DNA of 64,000 nt from Rhodoferax sp. (GTDB taxonomy: Bacteria > Pseudomonadota > Gammaproteobacteria > Burkholderiales > Burkholderiaceae_C), in contig NZ_JAAFIX010000003.1 of the NCBI RefSeq assembly GCF_013297935.1, forward strand, positions 186,001 to 250,000, read 5' to 3'. Position 1 is the first letter of the stretch. Each line of letters starts with the position of its first letter. The notes beneath the pieces are model-generated. The model saw only the letters and a program-made list of their open reading frames with translations, was not told the origin of the DNA and did no database searches. A program made the translations under genes and the position numbers. Below, in pieces: positions 6,372-63,937 of the stretch.

Positions 6372-6880
6372 GCGTCCACCCCGCTGGCGTTCACCCTGCC
6401 TCGGTGCATAAGCTGCAGGATTGCCTCTGCATTGGAGGGGGAAAAACAAAGGTCTGCCGCCTCCGCCATGGGCAACCAGCACCAATCCGTGTGCTCGGCG
6501 GGGCTCAGCCGGACCTCCATCCTGCCGGGAACGCTGAGTCCAAACACCCGCTCGACGTTGTGGGTCACACCTGCAGCGTAGCGGTGCAACCAACGCGGAT
6601 AGATGGCATAGATATTCTCAAGGCCCCAATCGTCCAGGCCCTGAGCGCACATGCCGCCCGGGCGGCAATCAATACCTGTTTCTTCCCACACTTCGCGGGC
6701 GGCCGTCACGGCCCACGGTTCACCCTCAGTATCTTTGGCGCCTGTCACGGATTGCCAGAATGCGGGCGCTGCAGCATCTGCCTCGACGCGGCGTATCAGC
6801 AGCACCTCGTGGTCGGGGGTGTAAATGACCACCAACACGGACTGGGGAATTTTGTATTGCAAGGTCATGGGCCCCGTCAT
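6368..6880 (-). CDS. nudB: Dihydroneopterin triphosphate diphosphatase, Nudix family
   Basis: Nudix box GEPWAVTAAREVWEETGI; next to aspS. The internal ATG at 6868 is the likelier start because the upstream ATG overlaps the aspS terminator T-tract. Confidence 0.85.
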   Translation of the reverse strand: MTGPMTLQYKIPQSVLVVIYTPDHEVLLIRRVEADAAAPAFWQSVTGAKDTEGEPWAVTAAREVWEETGIDCRPGGMCAQGLDDWGLENIYAIYPRWLHRYAAGVTHNVERVFGLSVPGRMEVRLSPAEHTDWCWLPMAEAADLCFSPSNAEAILQLMHRGRVNASGVDA

Positions 6881-13726: not shown

Positions 13727-13749
13727 AATTTATCAATCAAAACAGGCTC

Positions 13750-13794
13750 TAGCCCTCGTGGAATATGCGCTAGTAGCTCCTGAAACAATAGCAA
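13750..13794 (+). repeat. 45-bp dispersed element, copy E2 (intergenic ubiE/DUF971)
   Basis: TAGCCCTCGTGGAATATGCGCTAGTAGCTCCTGAAACAATAGCAA. Confidence 0.85.
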
Positions 13795-14232: not shown

Positions 14233-17200
14233 TTACACCAGTACGCGCTCAATGCCACCGGCATTGGCGGTTTGCACATAGTCGGGCAACCAGTCCTTAC
14301 CCAGAATCTGGTTGGCCATCTCGACCACGATGTAGTCGGCCTCCAGCAAGCCGTTGTTCAGGTCGTTGCCGTAGCGGCTCAAGCCCTGCAAGCAGCTCGG
14401 GCAGCTGGTCAAAATTTTCACGTTGGCATCCGGTGCCACGGCGCCGCTCTCGCGCAACTTGGCCTCGCCCTTCTTCAGCTCTTCTTCCTTGCGGAAGCGA
14501 ATCTGGGTCGAAATATCGGGACGGGTCACGCCCAGCGTGCCCGACTCGCCGCAGCAGCGGTCGTTTTTCAGCACCGCGTCACCCACCAGCGCCTTGACCG
14601 TTTTCATCGGGTCCTGCAGCTTCATCGGGCTGTGGCAGGGGTCGTGGTACAGGTAGCCTGTGCCCGCGCCACCGTCCTGGGCCAGGGTGATGCCCTTTTC
14701 CAGCAGGTATTCGTGGATGTCGATGATGCGGCTGCCGGGGAAAATCTTGTCGAACTCGTAGCCCTGCAGCTGGTCGTAACAGGTACCGCAGCTCACCACC
14801 ACGGTCTTGATGTCCAGGTAGTTCAGGGTGTTGGCCACACGGTGGAAGAGCACCCGGTTGTCGGTAATCATCTTCTCGGCCTTGTCGGCCTGCCCGCTGC
14901 CGCGTTGCGGGTATCCGCAGCACAGGTAGCCGGGCGGCAGCACGGTTTGCACCCCTGCGTGCCAGAGCATGGCTTGGGTCGCCAGGCCCACCTGGCTGAA
15001 CAGGCGCTCCGAGCCGCAGCCGGGGAAGTAAAACACCGCCTCGGTTTCCGCCGTGGTGGCGCGCGGGTTGCGGATGATGGGCACGTAGTCCGCATCTTCA
15101 ATGTCCAGCAGAGCGCGCGCCGTTTTCTTCGGCAAACCACCGGGCATCTTTTTGTTGATGAAGTGAATCACCTGCTCTTTGATGGGCGCTGTGCCCACCG
15201 TGGCCGGTGGCTTGGCCGTTTGCTTTTTGGCAGCCAGACGCAGCACTTGGTTGGCCAGGCGCTGGGCCTTGAAGCCCACACCCACCATGGCCGTGCGCAT
15301 CAGCTTGATGGTCTCGGGGTTCGTCGCGTTCAGGAAGAACATGGCCGCCGCATTGCCGGGGCGGAAGCTCTTCTGGCCCATCTTGCGCAGCAGGTTGCGC
15401 ATGTTCATGGTCACGTCGCCGAAGTCGATCTTCACCGGGCAGGGCGACTCGCACTTGTGGCAGACCGTGCAGTGGTCGGCCACGTCTTCAAACTCCTCCC
15501 AGTGCTTGACGCTGATGCCCCGGCGGGTCTGCTCTTCGTACAGGAAGGCTTCGACCAGCAGTGAGGTCGCCAGAATCTTGTTGCGTGGGCTGTAGAGCAG
15601 GTTGGCGCGCGGCACGTGGGTGGCGCACACTGGCTTGCACTTGCCGCAACGCAAGCAGTCTTTCACGCTGTCGGCAATGGCCCCGATATCGCTCTGCTGC
15701 ATGATCAGGGACTCGTGCCCCATGAGGCCGAACGACGGGGTGTAGGCGTTGGTCAGGTCGGCATAGATGGCGGAGCCGTCCGCAGTCAAATGCGGCGCGA
15801 ACCCGCTACCAGGCTGCGCAGGCAGCTCCTGATTCCGTAGCAACTTGCCCTTATTGAAGCGGCCTTCGGGGTCCACCTTGGCCTTGTAGGCAATGAACGG
15901 AGCCAGCTCCGCCTCGCTCAAAAACTCCAGCTTGGTGATGCCGATGCCGTGCTCACCCGAGATCACGCCGTCCAGACTGCGGGCCAGCGCCATGATGCGC
16001 TTGACCGCACCGTGGGCGGCTTGCAGCATGTCGTAGTCGTCGCTGTTGACGGGAATATTGGTGTGCACATTTCCGTCACCGGCGTGCATGTGCAAAGCGA
16101 CCCAGACGCGGCCTTTAAGCACGCGCTTGTGGATGGCGGTGCACTCGGCCAGAATGGTGTCGAAGGCTGCCCCGGTGAAGATGCCTTGCAGCGGCGTGCG
16201 GATTTGGGTTTTCCAGCTGGCGCGCAGGGTGTGGTCTTGCAACTGGGGGAACAGAGTCTCCACCCCGTCCAGCCAGCCCTGCCATTCGGCACGGACTGTT
16301 GCCACCAGCTCCAGGGCCTGGGCCACACGGTCTTCCAGCAACTCGGCGCTCGGAATGTCGTTGGCATCGTCGCTCTTGCCCAAGGGCAGGTCGCTGCGCT
16401 CAAAGAAGGCGGTCAGCGCATCGCACAGGGCCAGCTTGTTGTGCAGGCTCAGCTCAATGTTGATGCGCTCAATGCCGTCGGTGTACTCCGCCATGCGGGG
16501 CAGCGGAATCACCACGTCTTCGTTAATCTTGAAGGCGTTGGTGTGCTTGCTGATGGCGGCGGTGCGCTTGCGGTCCAGCCAGAACTTTTTGCGCGCCTCG
16601 GGGCTGATGGCCACAAAGCCTTCGCCACTGCGGCCATTGGCCAAGCGCACCACTTCGCTGGTGACGCGAGCCACATCGTCGGGGTTGTCGCCGGCAATGT
16701 CGCCAAACAACACCATCTTGGGGAAGCCGCCGCGCTTGCTCTTGGTGGCGTAGCCCACGGCTTTGAGGTAGCGGTCGTCCAAGTGCTCCAGGCCCGCCAG
16801 CAACACGCCACTGCGCTTTTGCTCGGCAAACATGAAGTCCTTGATGTCCACAATACTCGGCACCGCGTCTTTGGCATTGCCAAAAAACTCCAGGCACACC
16901 GTGCGGGTGTGGGCCGGCATCTTGTGCACCACCCAGCGTGCGCTGGTAATCAAGCCATCGGTGCCTTCTTTTTGAATACCGGGCAGGCCGCTCAAAAACT
17001 TGTCGGTCACGTCTTTGCCCAGACCTTCTTTGCGGAAGGTGGCGCCGGGAATGTCCAGCCGCTCGGTGCGCAAGGGCGTTTTGCCGTCGGCCTTGAAATA
17101 CTGCAGCTCAAAGCTCGCCGCTTCCGCATCATGGATCTTGCCCATGTTGTGGTTGATGCGGGTCACCTCCAGCCACTCGGCCTGCGGCGTCACCATGCGC

Positions 17201-18168
17201 CAGCTGGCCAGGTTGTCCAGAGCCGTGCCCCAGAGCACCGCTTTTTTGCCGCCCGCGTTCATGGCAATGTTGCCGCCGATACACGAGGCCTCGGCAGAGG
17301 TCGGGTCCACGGCAAACACATAACCGCCGCGCTCGGCCGCATCGGCCACGCGCTGGGTGACCACACCGGCTTCGCTCCAGATGGTACCCACATCCCGGTC
17401 CAGGCCGGGCAGGCGCTTCATCTCCAGCTCGGTCATGGCTTCGAGCTTTTCGGTGTTGATGACCACGCTCTTCCAAGTCAGCGGAATCGCGCCGCCGGTG
17501 TAGCCGGTGCCGCCCCCACGGGGAATGATGGTCAGCCCGAGCTCGATACAGCCTTTCACCAAACCGGCCATTTCTTCTTCTGAATCCGGGCACAGCACGA
17601 CAAAGGGGTACTCCACGCGCCAGTCGGTCGCGTCGGTCACATGGCTCACGCGAGAGAGGCCGTCGAACTTGACGTTGTCTTTGGCGGTGAGCTTGTAGAG
17701 CAGCTTCTGGGTCTTTTTGCGCAGCGCCCCGACCTCCACAAACGCCGCATCAAAGGCTTTGACGGCAGCACGGGCCGCCACCAGCAGCTGGCCCACCATC
17801 GCATCGCGCTCGGGATCGGCTTGGGGCGTGCGCCGCTTCTCGACCTCGCTCAGGCGGTGGTTCAAGGCATCGACCAACTGACCGCGGCGCTTGGGGTTGT
17901 CCAGCAAGTCGTCTTGCAGGTAGGGGTTGCGCTGCACCACCCAGACATCGCCCAGCACCTCGTACAACATGCGGGCGGAGCGGCCGGTCTGGCGCTCACC
18001 ACGCAACTGGTTCAACAACTCCCAGCTCTGAGAGCCCAACAAGCGGATCACGATTTCCCGGTCGGAGAAAGACGTGTAGTTGTAAGGAATTTCGCGAATG
18101 CGCTCTTGCGCGTGCGCGCCCTGCTGGGCAGCGCTAAGGAGGTGATTGAGCGAAGTGGGAGCGTTCAT
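14233..18168 (-). CDS. Giant FAD-linked/4Fe-4S oxidoreductase (DUF3683 - FAD_binding_4 - Fer4 - CCG domains)
   Basis: 1311 aa; FAD-binding [16 protein letters not shown], two Cys clusters [11 protein letters not shown] and [13 protein letters not shown]-terminal cysteine-rich domains. Confidence 0.9.
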
Positions 18169-22576: not shown

Positions 22577-23404
22577 ATGCACACCTCCGCCGAACCCGCT
22601 GCCCTGCCCGTCTGGCCCTACCCCCGCTGGGTCGCCCACCGGGGTGCCGGCAAACTCGCGCCGGAAAACACCCTGGCCGCCTTCCGTGAAGGGGCCGCGC
22701 ACGGGTACCGGATGTTCGAATGCGACGTCAAACTCAGTGCAGACGGCGTTCCGTTTTTGCTGCACGACGCGACCTTGGCACGCACCACTGATGCATCCAA
22801 CAAGACCTTAGCCCAGGTGGAATATGCGCCAGGCACTACAAAAAGCATAGCAAACAACCCTGGCGAAATAGCCGGCAATCACCCTTGGAGTACCTTGAGC
22901 CAGCTCGACGCCGGCAGCTGGCACAGCCGCCGCTTTGCAGGTGAGCCGGTGCCGACGCTGGACGCTATTGCGCGCTACTGCATCCGCAACGGGTATTTCC
23001 TGAACATCGAAATCAAACCCACCCCCGGCACCGAGCGGCACACCGGCGAAGTGGTGGCGCACCACGCCGCCCGCCTTTGGGCCGGGCAAGCGGTGCCGCC
23101 GCTGCTCACCTCGTTCGAACCCGAAGCGCTCGAAGGCGCCCTGGCCAAACAGCCCGACCTGCCCCGTGGCCTCCTGCTCGATACGCTGTGGAGCGGCTGG
23201 CTGGAAACCGCCCTGCGCCTGGGTTGCCGCGCCATCGTGTGCAACCACCAGCTCTGGGACGCTGGCACGGTGGTGCAAGCCAAAGCGGCCGGCCTGCGCA
23301 CCCTGAGCTACACCGTGAACGAGGAGCCGGCCGCCCAACGCTTGCTGGCTCTGGAGACGGACGGCATCATCACCGACCGGGTCGACCTGTTCAGCCCGTC
23401 TTGA
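22577..23404 (+). CDS. ugpQ: Glycerophosphodiester phosphodiesterase
   Basis: WVAHRGAGKLAPENTLAAFREGAAHGYRMFECDVKLSADGVPFLLHD. Confidence 0.94.
   Translation: MHTSAEPAALPVWPYPRWVAHRGAGKLAPENTLAAFREGAAHGYRMFECDVKLSADGVPFLLHDATLARTTDASNKTLAQVEYAPGTTKSIANNPGEIAGNHPWSTLSQLDAGSWHSRRFAGEPVPTLDAIARYCIRNGYFLNIEIKPTPGTERHTGEVVAHHAARLWAGQAVPPLLTSFEPEALEGALAKQPDLPRGLLLDTLWSGWLETALRLGCRAIVCNHQLWDAGTVVQAKAAGLRTLSYTVNEEPAAQRLLALETDGIITDRVDLFSPS
22809..22853 (+). repeat. 45-bp dispersed element, copy E3 (inside ugpQ)
   Basis: TAGCCCAGGTGGAATATGCGCCAGGCACTACAAAAAGCATAGCAA. Confidence 0.82.
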
Positions 23405-24103: not shown

Positions 24104-24373
24104 CTACCTGCGCATGGCCCACCATTGGCTACTGGCGCACGCCAAGACCATGAGCGCGTAGCTGGCCATCTTGCCGTCACGCCCGAAAAACAACAGACCA
24201 GCTACCAGGGCAGCCAAACCCGCTATCGAATTTATAGCTGCTTGCGCAGTCAATACGCGGGCTACAGTCACTTTTCTTATAAAAATAGGCGACAACACTG
24301 CTACCAGCAGGCCGACCACGGCCGCGGGAGCTACAAAGTTCAACAGGTGGGTGAGTAGATCAAGGGGGCCCAT
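24104..24373 (-). CDS. Small hydrophobic membrane protein
   Basis: MGPLDLLTHLLNFVAPAAVVGLLVAVLSPIF...LVAGLLFFGRDGKMASYALMVL; multiple TM segments. Confidence 0.75.
   Translation of the reverse strand: MGPLDLLTHLLNFVAPAAVVGLLVAVLSPIFIRKVTVARVLTAQAAINSIAGLAALVAGLLFFGRDGKMASYALMVLACASSQWWAMRR
24220..24264 (-). repeat. 45-bp dispersed element, copy E4 (inside small membrane protein gene)
   Basis: Minus strand TAGCCCGCGTATTGACTGCGCAAGCAGCTATAAATTCGATAGCGG. Confidence 0.78.
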
Positions 24374-27879: not shown

Positions 27880-27892
27880 CCAAATAGGCCGC

Positions 27893-27937
27893 TAGCCCAT
27901 GTAAATAATGCGCTAGCAGCTACTGAATTCATAGCAA
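27893..27937 (+). repeat. 45-bp dispersed element, copy E5 (intergenic prmC/yjdM)
   Basis: TAGCCCATGTAAATAATGCGCTAGCAGCTACTGAATTCATAGCAA. Confidence 0.85.
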
Positions 27938-33102: not shown

Positions 33103-33743
33103 GGCGCCCAGTCCCAGATACGCTTGTTGGCCATGACCGCGTTCGGGTAAGGCGACTTGCCCCGGGAACCGTTGTACCGCCCCAAAGCCATGAACATATC
33201 GCCACGCTCGCGCTCAAGGTAGTGACGCAAGATCACGCAGCCGAAGCGCAGATTGGTCTGCATGTGAAACAGCTTTCCCGCGTCGCCATCGCCCAGCACG
33301 CGGGTCCAGAAGGGCATGACCTGCATGTAGCCACGGGCGCCTACGCTGCTGACCGCAAACTTTCTGAAGTTGCTTTCCACCTGGATCAGGCCCATGACCA
33401 GCGACACGTCGAGGCCGGCCCGTTTGCTCTCGTACCAGACGGTCTGCAAGAACTCCCGCCGCACATCCCACTCCGGCTTTTTCCTCTTCAGGCGCTCGCT
33501 CATGGCACCCAGCCAGCGCAGGTAGTTCAACCGGGAATCGGTATCTTGAAACTCGGGAATCGGAGGCGCCGAGTTAGATATGGCAGACGACAGCGCGGTG
33601 CGCACCGAGTCCACCAGCGGCTCTTCGAGCTGCCTGCCCGCCACCGCCTTTTGCTGCGATAACGATAGCAAGCCACCCAGTAAAAACAAGCGCTGCAGCC
33701 CGATCCGGCGGCTAACACCGGATGCGGCTACCGGCATATTCAT
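33099..33743 (-). CDS. Lytic transglycosylase, SLT domain
   Basis: [33 protein letters not shown]. Confidence 0.92.
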
Positions 33744-35482
33744 GCCTTCAACTTGCCCAGCAACAGCGCAGCGATATCGGCGACCGCCACACTGGTGGCT
33801 GCGCTCTCACGGCGATGCTGGTACTCCACCACGCCTTCCTTCAAACCGCGGTCACCAATATTGACACGGTGCGGCACACCGATGAGCTCCCAGTCTGCAA
33901 ACATGGCGCCGGGACGCTCGTTGCGGTCATCCAGAATCACATCCACGCCGGCGGCCAACAGTTCCTCGTAGAGCTTGTCAGCAGCGGCCTTGACTTCGGG
34001 GAAGCGGTCCGGATTGATCGGGCACAGCACTACAGTAAATGGCGCCAATGCATCGGGCCAGATGATGCCCTTGTCGTCGTGGTTCTGCTCAATAGCGGCC
34101 GCAGGCAACCGGGTGATGCCGATGCCGTAGCAGCCCATTTCCATGAACTGGGGTTTGCCGTTCACATCCAGGAAGGTGGCGTTCATGGCCTTGCTGTACC
34201 TGGTGCCCAGGTAGAACACATGACCCACCTCAATGCCGCGCTCGATAGCCAAAACGCCCTTGCCGTCAGGCGATGCATCGCCCTCCACCACATTGCGCAG
34301 ATCGGCAATGACATCGGGCTCAGGCAGGTCACGGCCCCAGTTCACGCCGGTCAGGTGGAAGTCCACTTCGTTGGCGCCGCAGATCATGTCTGCCATCAAC
34401 GCCACTTCGCGGTCTGCCACCACTTTCAGGGGCTTCTTCAAGCCAACCGGCCCCAGGTAACCCGGCTCGCAGCCGAAGTGCTCATCAATTTCGCCCAGCG
34501 TCGCAAAACGGAAATCCGCCAAGCCCGGAACCTTGCCGACCTTGACCTCATTCATGCTGCGGTCGCCGCGGATCAACAGCAGCCACACCACCGATTTGAC
34601 GATCTCGCCTTTGTCGTCGCGCACATCGGTCGCCACCACCAAAGACTTCAAGGAGTTTGCAAGTGGAAACTTCAAGTATTCCGCCACATCCGCGCAGGTG
34701 CTCTTGCCTGGCGTTGCTACCTTTTCCATAGCAGCTTGCGCAGACGCTCTGGGGGCTACCGGCACTAATGCCTCTGCTTTTTCCATGTTGGCCGCGTAGT
34801 CGCTGGTCGGGCAGTAGACGATGGCGTCTTCCCCCGTGGCCGCAATCACTTGAAACTCTTCACTCAAATCGCCGCCGATAGCACCACTGTCGGCCGCCAC
34901 CGCGCGGTAGGTCAGGCCGAAGCGGTCGAAAATTCGGCGGTAAGCCTTGGCCATGACCTGGTAGCTGGCCTTGGCGGAATCCTGGTCGCGGTCAAAGCTG
35001 TAGGCATCCTTCATGATGAACTCACGACCGCGCATCAAGCCAAAGCGGGGGCGACGCTCGTCGCGGAACTTAGTCTGGATTTGGTACAGGTTCTTAGGCA
35101 GCTGCTTGTAGCTTTTGATTTCCTGGCGGGCAATGTCCGTCACCACTTCTTCGCTGGTCGGCTGGACCACGTAGTCGCGGTCGTGGCGGTCTTTGATGCG
35201 CAAGAGCTCAGGGCCCATCTTGTCAAAGCGACCTGTTTCCTGCCACAGCTCTGCGGGCTGGACCACCGGCATGGTCAGCTCGACGGCACCCGCGCGGTTC
35301 ATTTCTTCGCGAACAATCGCCTCGACTTTGCGGATTACCCGCAGTCCCATCGGCATGTAGTTGTAAATGCCGGCACCCAACTTTTTGATCATACCCGCAC
35401 GCATCATGAGCTTATGGCTCACCACTTCGGCATCGGTGGGCGCTTCTTTGAGGGTGGAAATCAGAAATTGGGAGGCTTTCAT
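33740..35482 (-). CDS. proS: Prolyl-tRNA synthetase
   Basis: Class II motifs, [28 protein letters not shown]. Confidence 0.97.
34714..34758 (-). repeat. 45-bp dispersed element, copy E6 (inside proS)
   Basis: Minus strand TAGCCCCCAGAGCGTCTGCGCAAGCTGCTATGGAAAAGGTAGCAA. Confidence 0.7.
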
Positions 35483-37871: not shown

Positions 37872-37880
37872 TTATGCCTG

Positions 37881-37925
37881 TAGCCCTTGAGGAATATGCG
37901 CGAGTAGCTATAAAAACCGTAGCAA
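37881..37925 (+). repeat. 45-bp dispersed element, copy E7 (intergenic proB/obgE)
   Basis: TAGCCCTTGAGGAATATGCGCGAGTAGCTATAAAAACCGTAGCAA. Confidence 0.85.
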
Positions 37926-41644: not shown

Positions 41645-43093
41645 TTAACGGCCGTACACATCCTCAAAACGCACGATGTCGTCCTCGCCGAGATAGCTAC
41701 CCGACTGCACCTCAATCATCTCCAGCGCCAGCTTGCCGGGGTTTTCCAAGCGGTGGGTAGTGCCCAGCGGGATATAGGTTGACTCGTTCTCAGACAGCAA
41801 TAGCGTTTTCTCACCCACCGTTACCTTGGCAGTGCCGCTCACCACAATCCAATGCTCCGCACGATGGTGGTGCATTTGCAGCGACAACGCGGCCCCTGGC
41901 TTGACCACGATGCGCTTCACCTGGAAGCGGTCGCCATGGTCAATGCTGTCGTACCAGCCCCATGGGCGGAACACCTTGCGGTGCGCCTGACCTTCACTGC
42001 GGCCTGCCTGCTTGAGGCGGTCCACAATTTTCTTCACGTCTTGGGTTTTGTTTTTATGGGCAACCAGAATCGCATCGGCCGTCTCCACCACAATCAAATC
42101 ATCCACGCCCACACACGCAATGAGGCGGCCTTCCGAGAGGGCCAAGGTATTGCGACTGTCCTGCATCAACACATCGCCCTGCGCCACATTGCCGTCAGAG
42201 TCCTTGGGCAGCACGTTCCACAAAGCCTCCCAAGCACCCACATCCGACCAACCTGCAGACAGGGGAATTACCACACCTGTGGGCAACCCCGCCACCGCAG
42301 CCCCACCTTGGCCCGCCAGGCGCTCCATCACGGCATAGTCGATCGAGTCGCTGGGGCAGGCACTGAAAGCCTCCTTGCCCACCCGCACAAACTCAGCATC
42401 AGTGCTGCCCTGGCTCCAGGCCGTGTCACAGGCCTTGGCAATGTCAGGACGGCAGCGCTCCATGGCCGCCAGCCACACCGAAGCCTTCATCATGAACAAG
42501 CCGCTGTTCCATGAGTAAGTGCCTTCTGCCAGGTACGCCTGTGCGGTCTGCAAATCAGGCTTCTCCACAAAACGGGCAATCTGCTTGGCACCCTCGGCGT
42601 CAAACGCATCGCCGGACTGGATGTAGCCATAGCCTGTTTCGGGCGCATCCGGCGTAATGCCAAAAGTCACCACCGCACCCTCGTGCGCCAGGCGGGCACC
42701 CTTCACCACCGCAGCGCGGAACGCGGCGCCGTCCATGATCACATGGTCGGCCGGCATCACCAGCAGCACAGGATCTGCTCCGTTTTTAATAGCGGCTCGC
42801 GCAGCAATCGTCAGGGCTGGAGCCGTATTTCTCCCCAAAGGCTCTAACACAACCGTGCCCGGCTTGCCCATCAAGCGCATCTGCTCCGCAATCACAAAGC
42901 GGTACTCTTCGTTGCACACCACCATGGGCGGCGCTAACTCCACACCCGCAATACCTTCCACACGGCGCACGGTGGCCTGCAGCAAAGAGTCTTCGCCAAT
43001 CAAAGGCAGCAACTGCTTGGGGTACTTTTCCCGCGACAAAGGCCACAAACGGGTGCCGGAGCCACCGGACAAAACAACAGGTTGAATCAACAT
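41645..43093 (-). CDS. manC: Mannose-1-phosphate guanylyltransferase/mannose-6-phosphate isomerase (bifunctional)
   Basis: PVVLSGGSGTRLWPLSREKYPKQ...RPWGWYDSIDHGDRFQVKRIVVKPGAALSLQMHHHRAEHW. Confidence 0.96.
   Translation of the reverse strand: MLIQPVVLSGGSGTRLWPLSREKYPKQLLPLIGEDSLLQATVRRVEGIAGVELAPPMVVCNEEYRFVIAEQMRLMGKPGTVVLEPLGRNTAPALTIAARAAIKNGADPVLLVMPADHVIMDGAAFRAAVVKGARLAHEGAVVTFGITPDAPETGYGYIQSGDAFDAEGAKQIARFVEKPDLQTAQAYLAEGTYSWNSGLFMMKASVWLAAMERCRPDIAKACDTAWSQGSTDAEFVRVGKEAFSACPSDSIDYAVMERLAGQGGAAVAGLPTGVVIPLSAGWSDVGAWEALWNVLPKDSDGNVAQGDVLMQDSRNTLALSEGRLIACVGVDDLIVVETADAILVAHKNKTQDVKKIVDRLKQAGRSEGQAHRKVFRPWGWYDSIDHGDRFQVKRIVVKPGAALSLQMHHHRAEHWIVVSGTAKVTVGEKTLLLSENESTYIPLGTTHRLENPGKLALEMIEVQSGSYLGEDDIVRFEDVYGR
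42775..42819 (-). repeat. 45-bp dispersed element-like, copy E8 (inside manC)
   Basis: Minus strand CAGCCCTGACGATTGCTGCGCGAGCCGCTATTAAAAACGGAGCAG. Confidence 0.6.
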
Positions 43094-63404: not shown

Positions 63405-63873
63405 AGACGTTTTTTTGGGCGTGGTAGATGCCGCGCCCCTGGTCGCCATGGACCTGGTGGTGGTGCGCGGCGGCACCGAGATATTGCTAGGCCTGCGCAA
63501 CAACCGCCCCGCCCAAGGCTTTTGGTTTGTGCCGGGGGGGCGCATTCGTAAAAACGAAACCATGCAGGCCGCCATGGCGCGCGTTGCCCACGACGAGCTG
63601 GGCTTGGCGCTGGCCGATTTGCTGGTGCAGCCGCGTCATATGGGTGCCTTTGAGCACTTTTACACTGACTGTTTTGCGGGGGAGGTGGGCGTGTCCACCC
63701 ACTATGTGGTAATGGGCAACCTGGTTACATTGCCCGCTAGCACCGAGCTTGCTGCGGCCGATGCACAGCACAGCGCCCTGCGCTGGTGGCCGCTGGCCGA
63801 GGCACAAGCCGCCGCCGAGGTGCACCGCTTTACCAAAGACTATGTGGATGTCATTTTGCTATCAAAAGAGTAG
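63394..63873 (+). CDS. gmm: GDP-mannose mannosyl hydrolase (Nudix)
   Basis: GFWFVPGGRIRKNETMQAAMARVAHDELGL; GDP-sugar locus context. Confidence 0.88.
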   Translation: MLSKDVFLGVVDAAPLVAMDLVVVRGGTEILLGLRNNRPAQGFWFVPGGRIRKNETMQAAMARVAHDELGLALADLLVQPRHMGAFEHFYTDCFAGEVGVSTHYVVMGNLVTLPASTELAAADAQHSALRWWPLAEAQAAAEVHRFTKDYVDVILLSKE

Positions 63874-63900
63874 CTGTTTGCGAAGACTCTACTTGGGCTA
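63856..63900 (-). repeat. 45-bp dispersed element, copy E9 (overlaps 3' end of gmm)
   Basis: Minus strand TAGCCCAAGTAGAGTCTTCGCAAACAGCTACTCTTTTGATAGCAA. Confidence 0.8.
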
Positions 63901-63937
63901 GAGGCATATTTTGTTTATATTTGAGAGGGAGTGAGTT

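Follow-up and report, generated by a model that had tools for sequence, protein, structure and literature searches.

A 45-mer within ugpQ of a Rhodoferax-like member of the Comamonadaceae (genome G000, 3.6 Mb) belongs to a set of repeats spread over the chromosome, each a copy of one double-stranded DNA recognition motif whose nucleotides are preserved by selection or by biased recombination. The motif is a candidate DNA uptake sequence, a reading to which we assign a probability of about 50% and which is drawn by analogy with the DUS and USS classes. The window referred to below is the whole 64,000-nucleotide stretch in which the 45-mer was found.

A repeated motif in the window and the genome

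The motif spans ~50 bp with the form AAA-N8-TAGCsC-N10-TGCGC-nAGnAGCTA-N9-TAGCA, and it occurs about 480-560 times in the genome, on either strand, which gives roughly one copy every 6.5 kb. Its core pattern has 99 matches in the genome at ≤3 mismatches and the reversed control has none; a longer, looser pattern gives 477 matches in the whole genome and 10 in its control. An HMM trained on intergenic copies only identifies 129 in the 844 kb that were sampled, equivalent to about 550 per genome, and chance is ruled out as the source of the repeat copies. In the sampled regions the copies are strand-balanced, and intergenic density is 1.02/kb in convergent regions, 0.58 in tandem and 0.19 in divergent ones. 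Spacing is even in one region (from genome G007; CV 0.72, p 0.002) and does not depart significantly from chance in two others. A full-text search of the open-licence literature with substrings of the motif returned no relevant paper, although an earlier description may exist elsewhere.

Copies in the window were placed with an nhmmer profile built from the genome copies, and are listed here together with ugpQ.

13738..13793, + strand: motif copy (nhmmer E 7e-14)
15787..15842, + strand: motif copy, antisense in a 1311-aa gene (14233-18168, -), no indel relative to relatives (nhmmer E 1e-4)
22577..23404, + strand: ugpQ, glycerophosphodiester phosphodiesterase, 275 aa, host of a motif copy (ORF; AlphaFold model)
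22795..22857, + strand: motif copy in ugpQ, including the 45-mer at 22809-22853 (nhmmer E 3e-6; 2e-6 with the intergenic-only model)
24222..24275, - strand: intergenic motif copy downstream of ugpQ, flanked by a HAD-type gene and hemA (nhmmer E 5e-11)
27881..27936, + strand: motif copy (nhmmer E 2e-14)
34715..34767, - strand: motif copy, sense in a 580-aa gene (33740-35482, -), no indel relative to relatives (nhmmer E 2e-8)
37872..37924, + strand: motif copy (nhmmer E 3e-12)
42776..42830, - strand: motif copy, sense in a conserved 482-aa gene (41645-43093, -) (nhmmer E 1e-8, intergenic-only model)
63857..63911, - strand: motif copy (nhmmer E 5e-11)

The copy in ugpQ

The nearest named relatives of this UgpQ are those of Rhodoferax spp. 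and Comamonadaceae bacterium OS-4, and its predicted fold is a GDPD barrel, the best PDB match of the AlphaFold model being 2otd (E 1.1e-31, 49% identity). The 45-mer, TAGCCCAGGTGGAATATGCGCCAGGCACTACAAAAAGCATAGCAA, is on the + strand, and the ugpQ frame crosses it from the codon TTA beginning at 22808 to give LAQVEYAPGTTKSIA-N. An initial annotation had described it as lying in sense orientation in ugpQ, encoding LAQVEYAPGTTKSIA, with this peptide located between HDATLARTTDASN and GNHPWSTLSQLDAGSW; the sequence, the reading frame and the ORF translation agree on both points. The motif copy is longer than the 45-mer, spanning about 22795-22857, and is read in sense in the codon phase LAxVxYAxxAxxxIA. 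In the window it is degraded, with part of the AGCTA block gone; most relatives have better copies, and the same ugpQ site in locus L034 matches the motif at E 1.4e-12 (nhmmer).

Extra residues are present at the motif site in 12 of 95 distinct UgpQ orthologues, and 11 of these 12 also carry the nucleotide motif, whereas none of the 83 orthologues lacking the residues has an nhmmer motif match better than E=7. Fixed codons flank a segment of 105 nt in the window, as against 99 nt in L034 and in near relatives and 63 nt in insert-free orthologues, so that the extra DNA amounts to ~36-42 nt. There is thus an in-frame indel at exactly the predicted site, of 12-14 residues where ~15-20 had been proposed, and the inserts of relatives read LAPVDHARVAIKDVAN and similar, a direct translation of the motif. 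The further proposal that the insertion is tolerated in a loop is supported by an AlphaFold2 model (39-sequence alignment), which places the extra residues in a predicted disordered surface loop; residues 85-93 have pLDDT <50, with 88 overall. Insert-bearing sequences group together in a tree built without the insert columns and a quick tree requires 3 changes; the insert may have a single origin. It is absent from some motif-rich genomes (G003, G013, G015 and G026) and is therefore a lineage-specific gain. The ugpQ copy is exceptional among the copies in being linked to a length change.

Copies inside genes are maintained at synonymous sites

About 36-40% of the copies lie in genes (48 of 129 in the sampled 844 kb), and five synonymous-codon shuffles of all genes yield none (E≤0.01). 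Gene prediction relied on a simple caller based on codon usage, and contamination of the HMM by coding hits was checked by intergenic-only retraining and by the synonymous shuffles, after both of which the in-gene matches stood. Most of the in-gene copies compared fall in conserved protein segments whose length does not differ in relatives, and an in-frame insertion in orthologues is seen for ugpQ and not for most of the others. The copy at 42776..42830 (-), for example, overlies the segment GRNTAPALTIAARAAIKNGADPVLLVMPADH in a gene that is equally long in relatives. In-gene copies mainly take the two phases that read open, one sense and one antisense, and their motif-matching codons are unusually A/T-ending.

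In one ~289-kb region compared with two relatives at informative motif columns, motif-matching synonymous sites are conserved at 126 of 151 positions in the first relative (61 expected from codon-matched sites, z 11.9) and at 117 of 142 in the second (53 expected, z 12.1). Conservation of synonymous sites that mismatch the motif is near expectation.

Several in-gene copies coincide with what look like signal-peptide codons at the beginning of genes for predicted exported proteins (L073 14694-15695, L075 1411-1887 and L061 7503-9740). Two copies also lie in the comEC gene of the same genome (L099:4223-6724, -), one at L099 5461 (+) and the other at 6542 (-).

Fixed positions, a base switch and dialects

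Positions of the copies are close to fixed between species. Among anchored sites with alignable flanks, the copy is shared at 39 and absent at 1 in G007, and shared at 35 and absent at 6 in G001 (n=41). Column 28 (TAGC-C-C or TAGC-G-C) reads C in G000 but G in G007 for 31 of the 39 sites that the two share, with no change in the reverse direction. Seven of eight sense in-gene copies have GCC in G000 and GCG in G007, a synonymous change with a background of 17%. Linkers at shared sites remain copy-specific (identity 0.62, compared with 0.33 for random pairs), which disfavours conversion between copies as the cause of the base switch. Column 28 is mixed in G001 (G 56%, C 41%); relative to G000 and G007 the two forms are near-equal there, as in a genome midway through a change of dialect.

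Other dialects are present in G009 (TAGAGCCC...TGCGGGAG), G362 (TAGCCGGC...TTGCCTAAG) and G333 (TAGCCCCCGT...ATAGTTTGCTA), the last with 61 copies in 392 kb on both strands and none in the reversed control. Density is similar across dialects, at ~1 per 6-7 kb. In a sample of 300 genomes from the order, nearly all matches are in the Comamonadaceae, and across 151 genomes of this family pattern counts vary between hundreds and the control level, at times within one genus; the genomes compared include MAGs. R. bucti (541), an R. ferrireducens isolate (475) and Polaromonas spp. (199-358) are rich in copies, and counts are at the control level in R. lacus and Caenimonas soli. The 305-kb second replicon of G001, the one such replicon considered, has 3 copies where ~41 are expected.

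Alternatives to an uptake sequence

The initial annotation was correct about an in-frame loop insertion in ugpQ; its view of this as a mobile repeat akin to the Rickettsia palindromic elements does not hold. A transposing palindromic, MITE- or REP-like element that sometimes inserts in frame would account for the high copy number, for the coincidence of the ugpQ copy with a 12-14 aa indel and for the open phases favoured by in-gene copies, in which an in-frame insertion is tolerable. We nevertheless consider such an element very unlikely, as there is no Watson-Crick covariation (observed pairing equals expectation at every candidate pair), the filled and empty sites examined show no clean insertion with target duplication, and many copies occupy conserved protein segments of unchanged length. 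The near-fixed positions and the concerted single-base change in place are not the expected outcome of transposition, and the synonymous maintenance argues in the same direction. The ugpQ copy resembles the Rickettsia elements as an in-frame repeat giving extra surface-loop residues, but the motif differs from them in its lack of palindromic covariation, its fixed positions, the absence of an indel at most sites and its maintenance at the nucleotide level. REP/BIME elements also reach hundreds of copies, but REPs are paired palindromes outside genes; a RAYT-mobilised REP is ruled out by the finding of only one Y1_Tnp gene, which is unlinked to copies. This single Y1_Tnp (TnpA_REP-like) gene, L221 (G000:C23:302807-303031), is near AAATAGGGTCTGACCCTATTTAATTT and has no flanking copies. 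The Beta-proteobacterial repeat element (BRE) likewise has Comamonadaceae hosts and some coding copies, but it is ~90 bp long, 69% GC in Bordetella, often tandem and present in 29 copies at most (PMC3110155). On its published description, these counts and this composition set it apart from the motif (PMC3110155).

An element acting in RNA, such as a terminator, an mRNA stability hairpin or a small-RNA target enriched at 3' ends, would fit the enrichment in convergent and tandem intergenic regions and the short inverted repeat GCTA-N9-TAGC. It is extremely improbable, however, given that compensatory changes are absent at all candidate pairs, that copies show no preferred orientation relative to tandem genes (20 same, 23 opposite) and that Rfam yields 0 matches to the motif above the gathering score; a hairpin of RNA or single-stranded DNA is ruled out by the lack of covariation and of an Rfam match. 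AAA and TTT tracts interchange as coupled units, which suggests that the shape of double-stranded DNA is recognised, and the AT tracts are about two helical turns apart. The form of the site, long, multi-block and with phased AT tracts, also suits a chromosome-organising protein (a nucleoid-associated, segregation or replication factor), for which purifying selection would keep ~500 chromosomal sites while the specificity of the protein changes between lineages. The near-fixed positions, the like density across dialects, the mild evenness of spacing in G007, the depletion of the second replicon and the strand balance all agree with such a role, which is the main alternative, though to our minds a less likely one than an uptake sequence. 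A concerted switch at hundreds of sites is hard to achieve by selection alone and easier by uptake-biased recombination, and a range from hundreds of copies to none among closely related genomes of one genus is odd for an essential chromosomal function. We know of no chromosomal system of such copy number that permeates conserved coding sequence.

A candidate DNA uptake sequence

The reading of the motif as an uptake sequence is inferred from features that are those of DUS and USS: abundance, overlay on coding sequence by copies that are not inserted, dialects that differ by point changes, evolution in place, extrachromosomal depletion (on one replicon) and AT tracts beside GC cores. To our knowledge DUS and USS occur in only two families, Neisseriaceae and Pasteurellaceae. 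We tentatively suggest, at somewhat less than even odds, that the motif represents a third, independently evolved family in the Comamonadaceae, about 50 bp long, multi-block and with at least four dialects.

Like the motif, the DUS of Neisseriaceae occur on the chromosome in many copies (hundreds to thousands), placed where intergenic or coding sequence is permissive; they come in lineage dialects that differ by single bases (PMC3630211) and are patchily absent within the family, and the coexistence of two dialects in one genome, possible for DUS, is seen here in G001 (C/G). DUS are however only ~10-12 bp, several times denser and backed by uptake assays and an identified receptor, ComP, whereas the motif runs to ~50 bp in several blocks. 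The USS of Pasteurellaceae share with it a GC-rich core with flanking AT tracts and evolution through point mutation and not insertion (PMC7811141). They are about 31 bp long with one core and about one per kb, and the motif is unrelated in sequence, has several conserved blocks and, at one per ~6.5 kb, is sparser than known DUS/USS (~1 per 1 kb).

As a mechanism, we propose that motif-carrying DNA would be favoured by a cell-surface receptor belonging to the type IV pilus/ComEC competence machinery, so that DNA taken up by transformation would tend toward good copies. Recombination would then spread and repair copies at existing sites, a molecular drive as for DUS/USS, and a shift in receptor preference would be followed at hundreds of sites through point change. 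Copies would settle at low-cost places: in intergenic DNA at convergent 3' ends, at synonymous codons and in loops, the UgpQ loop copy presumably being one that happened to arrive with extra length.

The greater length and lower density of the motif weigh against an uptake role, and so do some further observations. ComEC is encoded in 149 of 151 family genomes and, being near-universal, does not separate motif-rich from motif-free genomes. In G340, a complete single-contig genome with 144 motif copies, comEC (L259, G340:C1:1835891-1838287) is broken into overlapping pieces, and the uptake reading requires a recent loss of the gene there; comEC of G333 runs off a contig end. The even spacing in one region could suit chromosome organisation just as well and is counted against an uptake sequence.

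Implications

Acidovorax temperans was transformed by DNA of its own species and by no other, and selective uptake in Verminephrobacter eiseniae depended on type IV pili; no sequence was identified in either (PMC4212676). Most simply, the motif may be the uptake sequence of the family, the missing tag by which the freshwater bacteria that carry it recognise and take up own-species DNA. If so, it would account for the published restriction of transformation to same-species DNA in Acidovorax and Verminephrobacter, and would shape coding sequence chromosome-wide. It offers a testable sequence for a behaviour of the Comamonadaceae so far without a sequence explanation. Were it a chromosome-organising site instead, it would be a new one with hundreds of copies. 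A motif of this nucleotide-level kind is easily mistaken for a mobile element, and under either reading it places a nucleotide-level constraint on many conserved proteins and on the loop of one enzyme.
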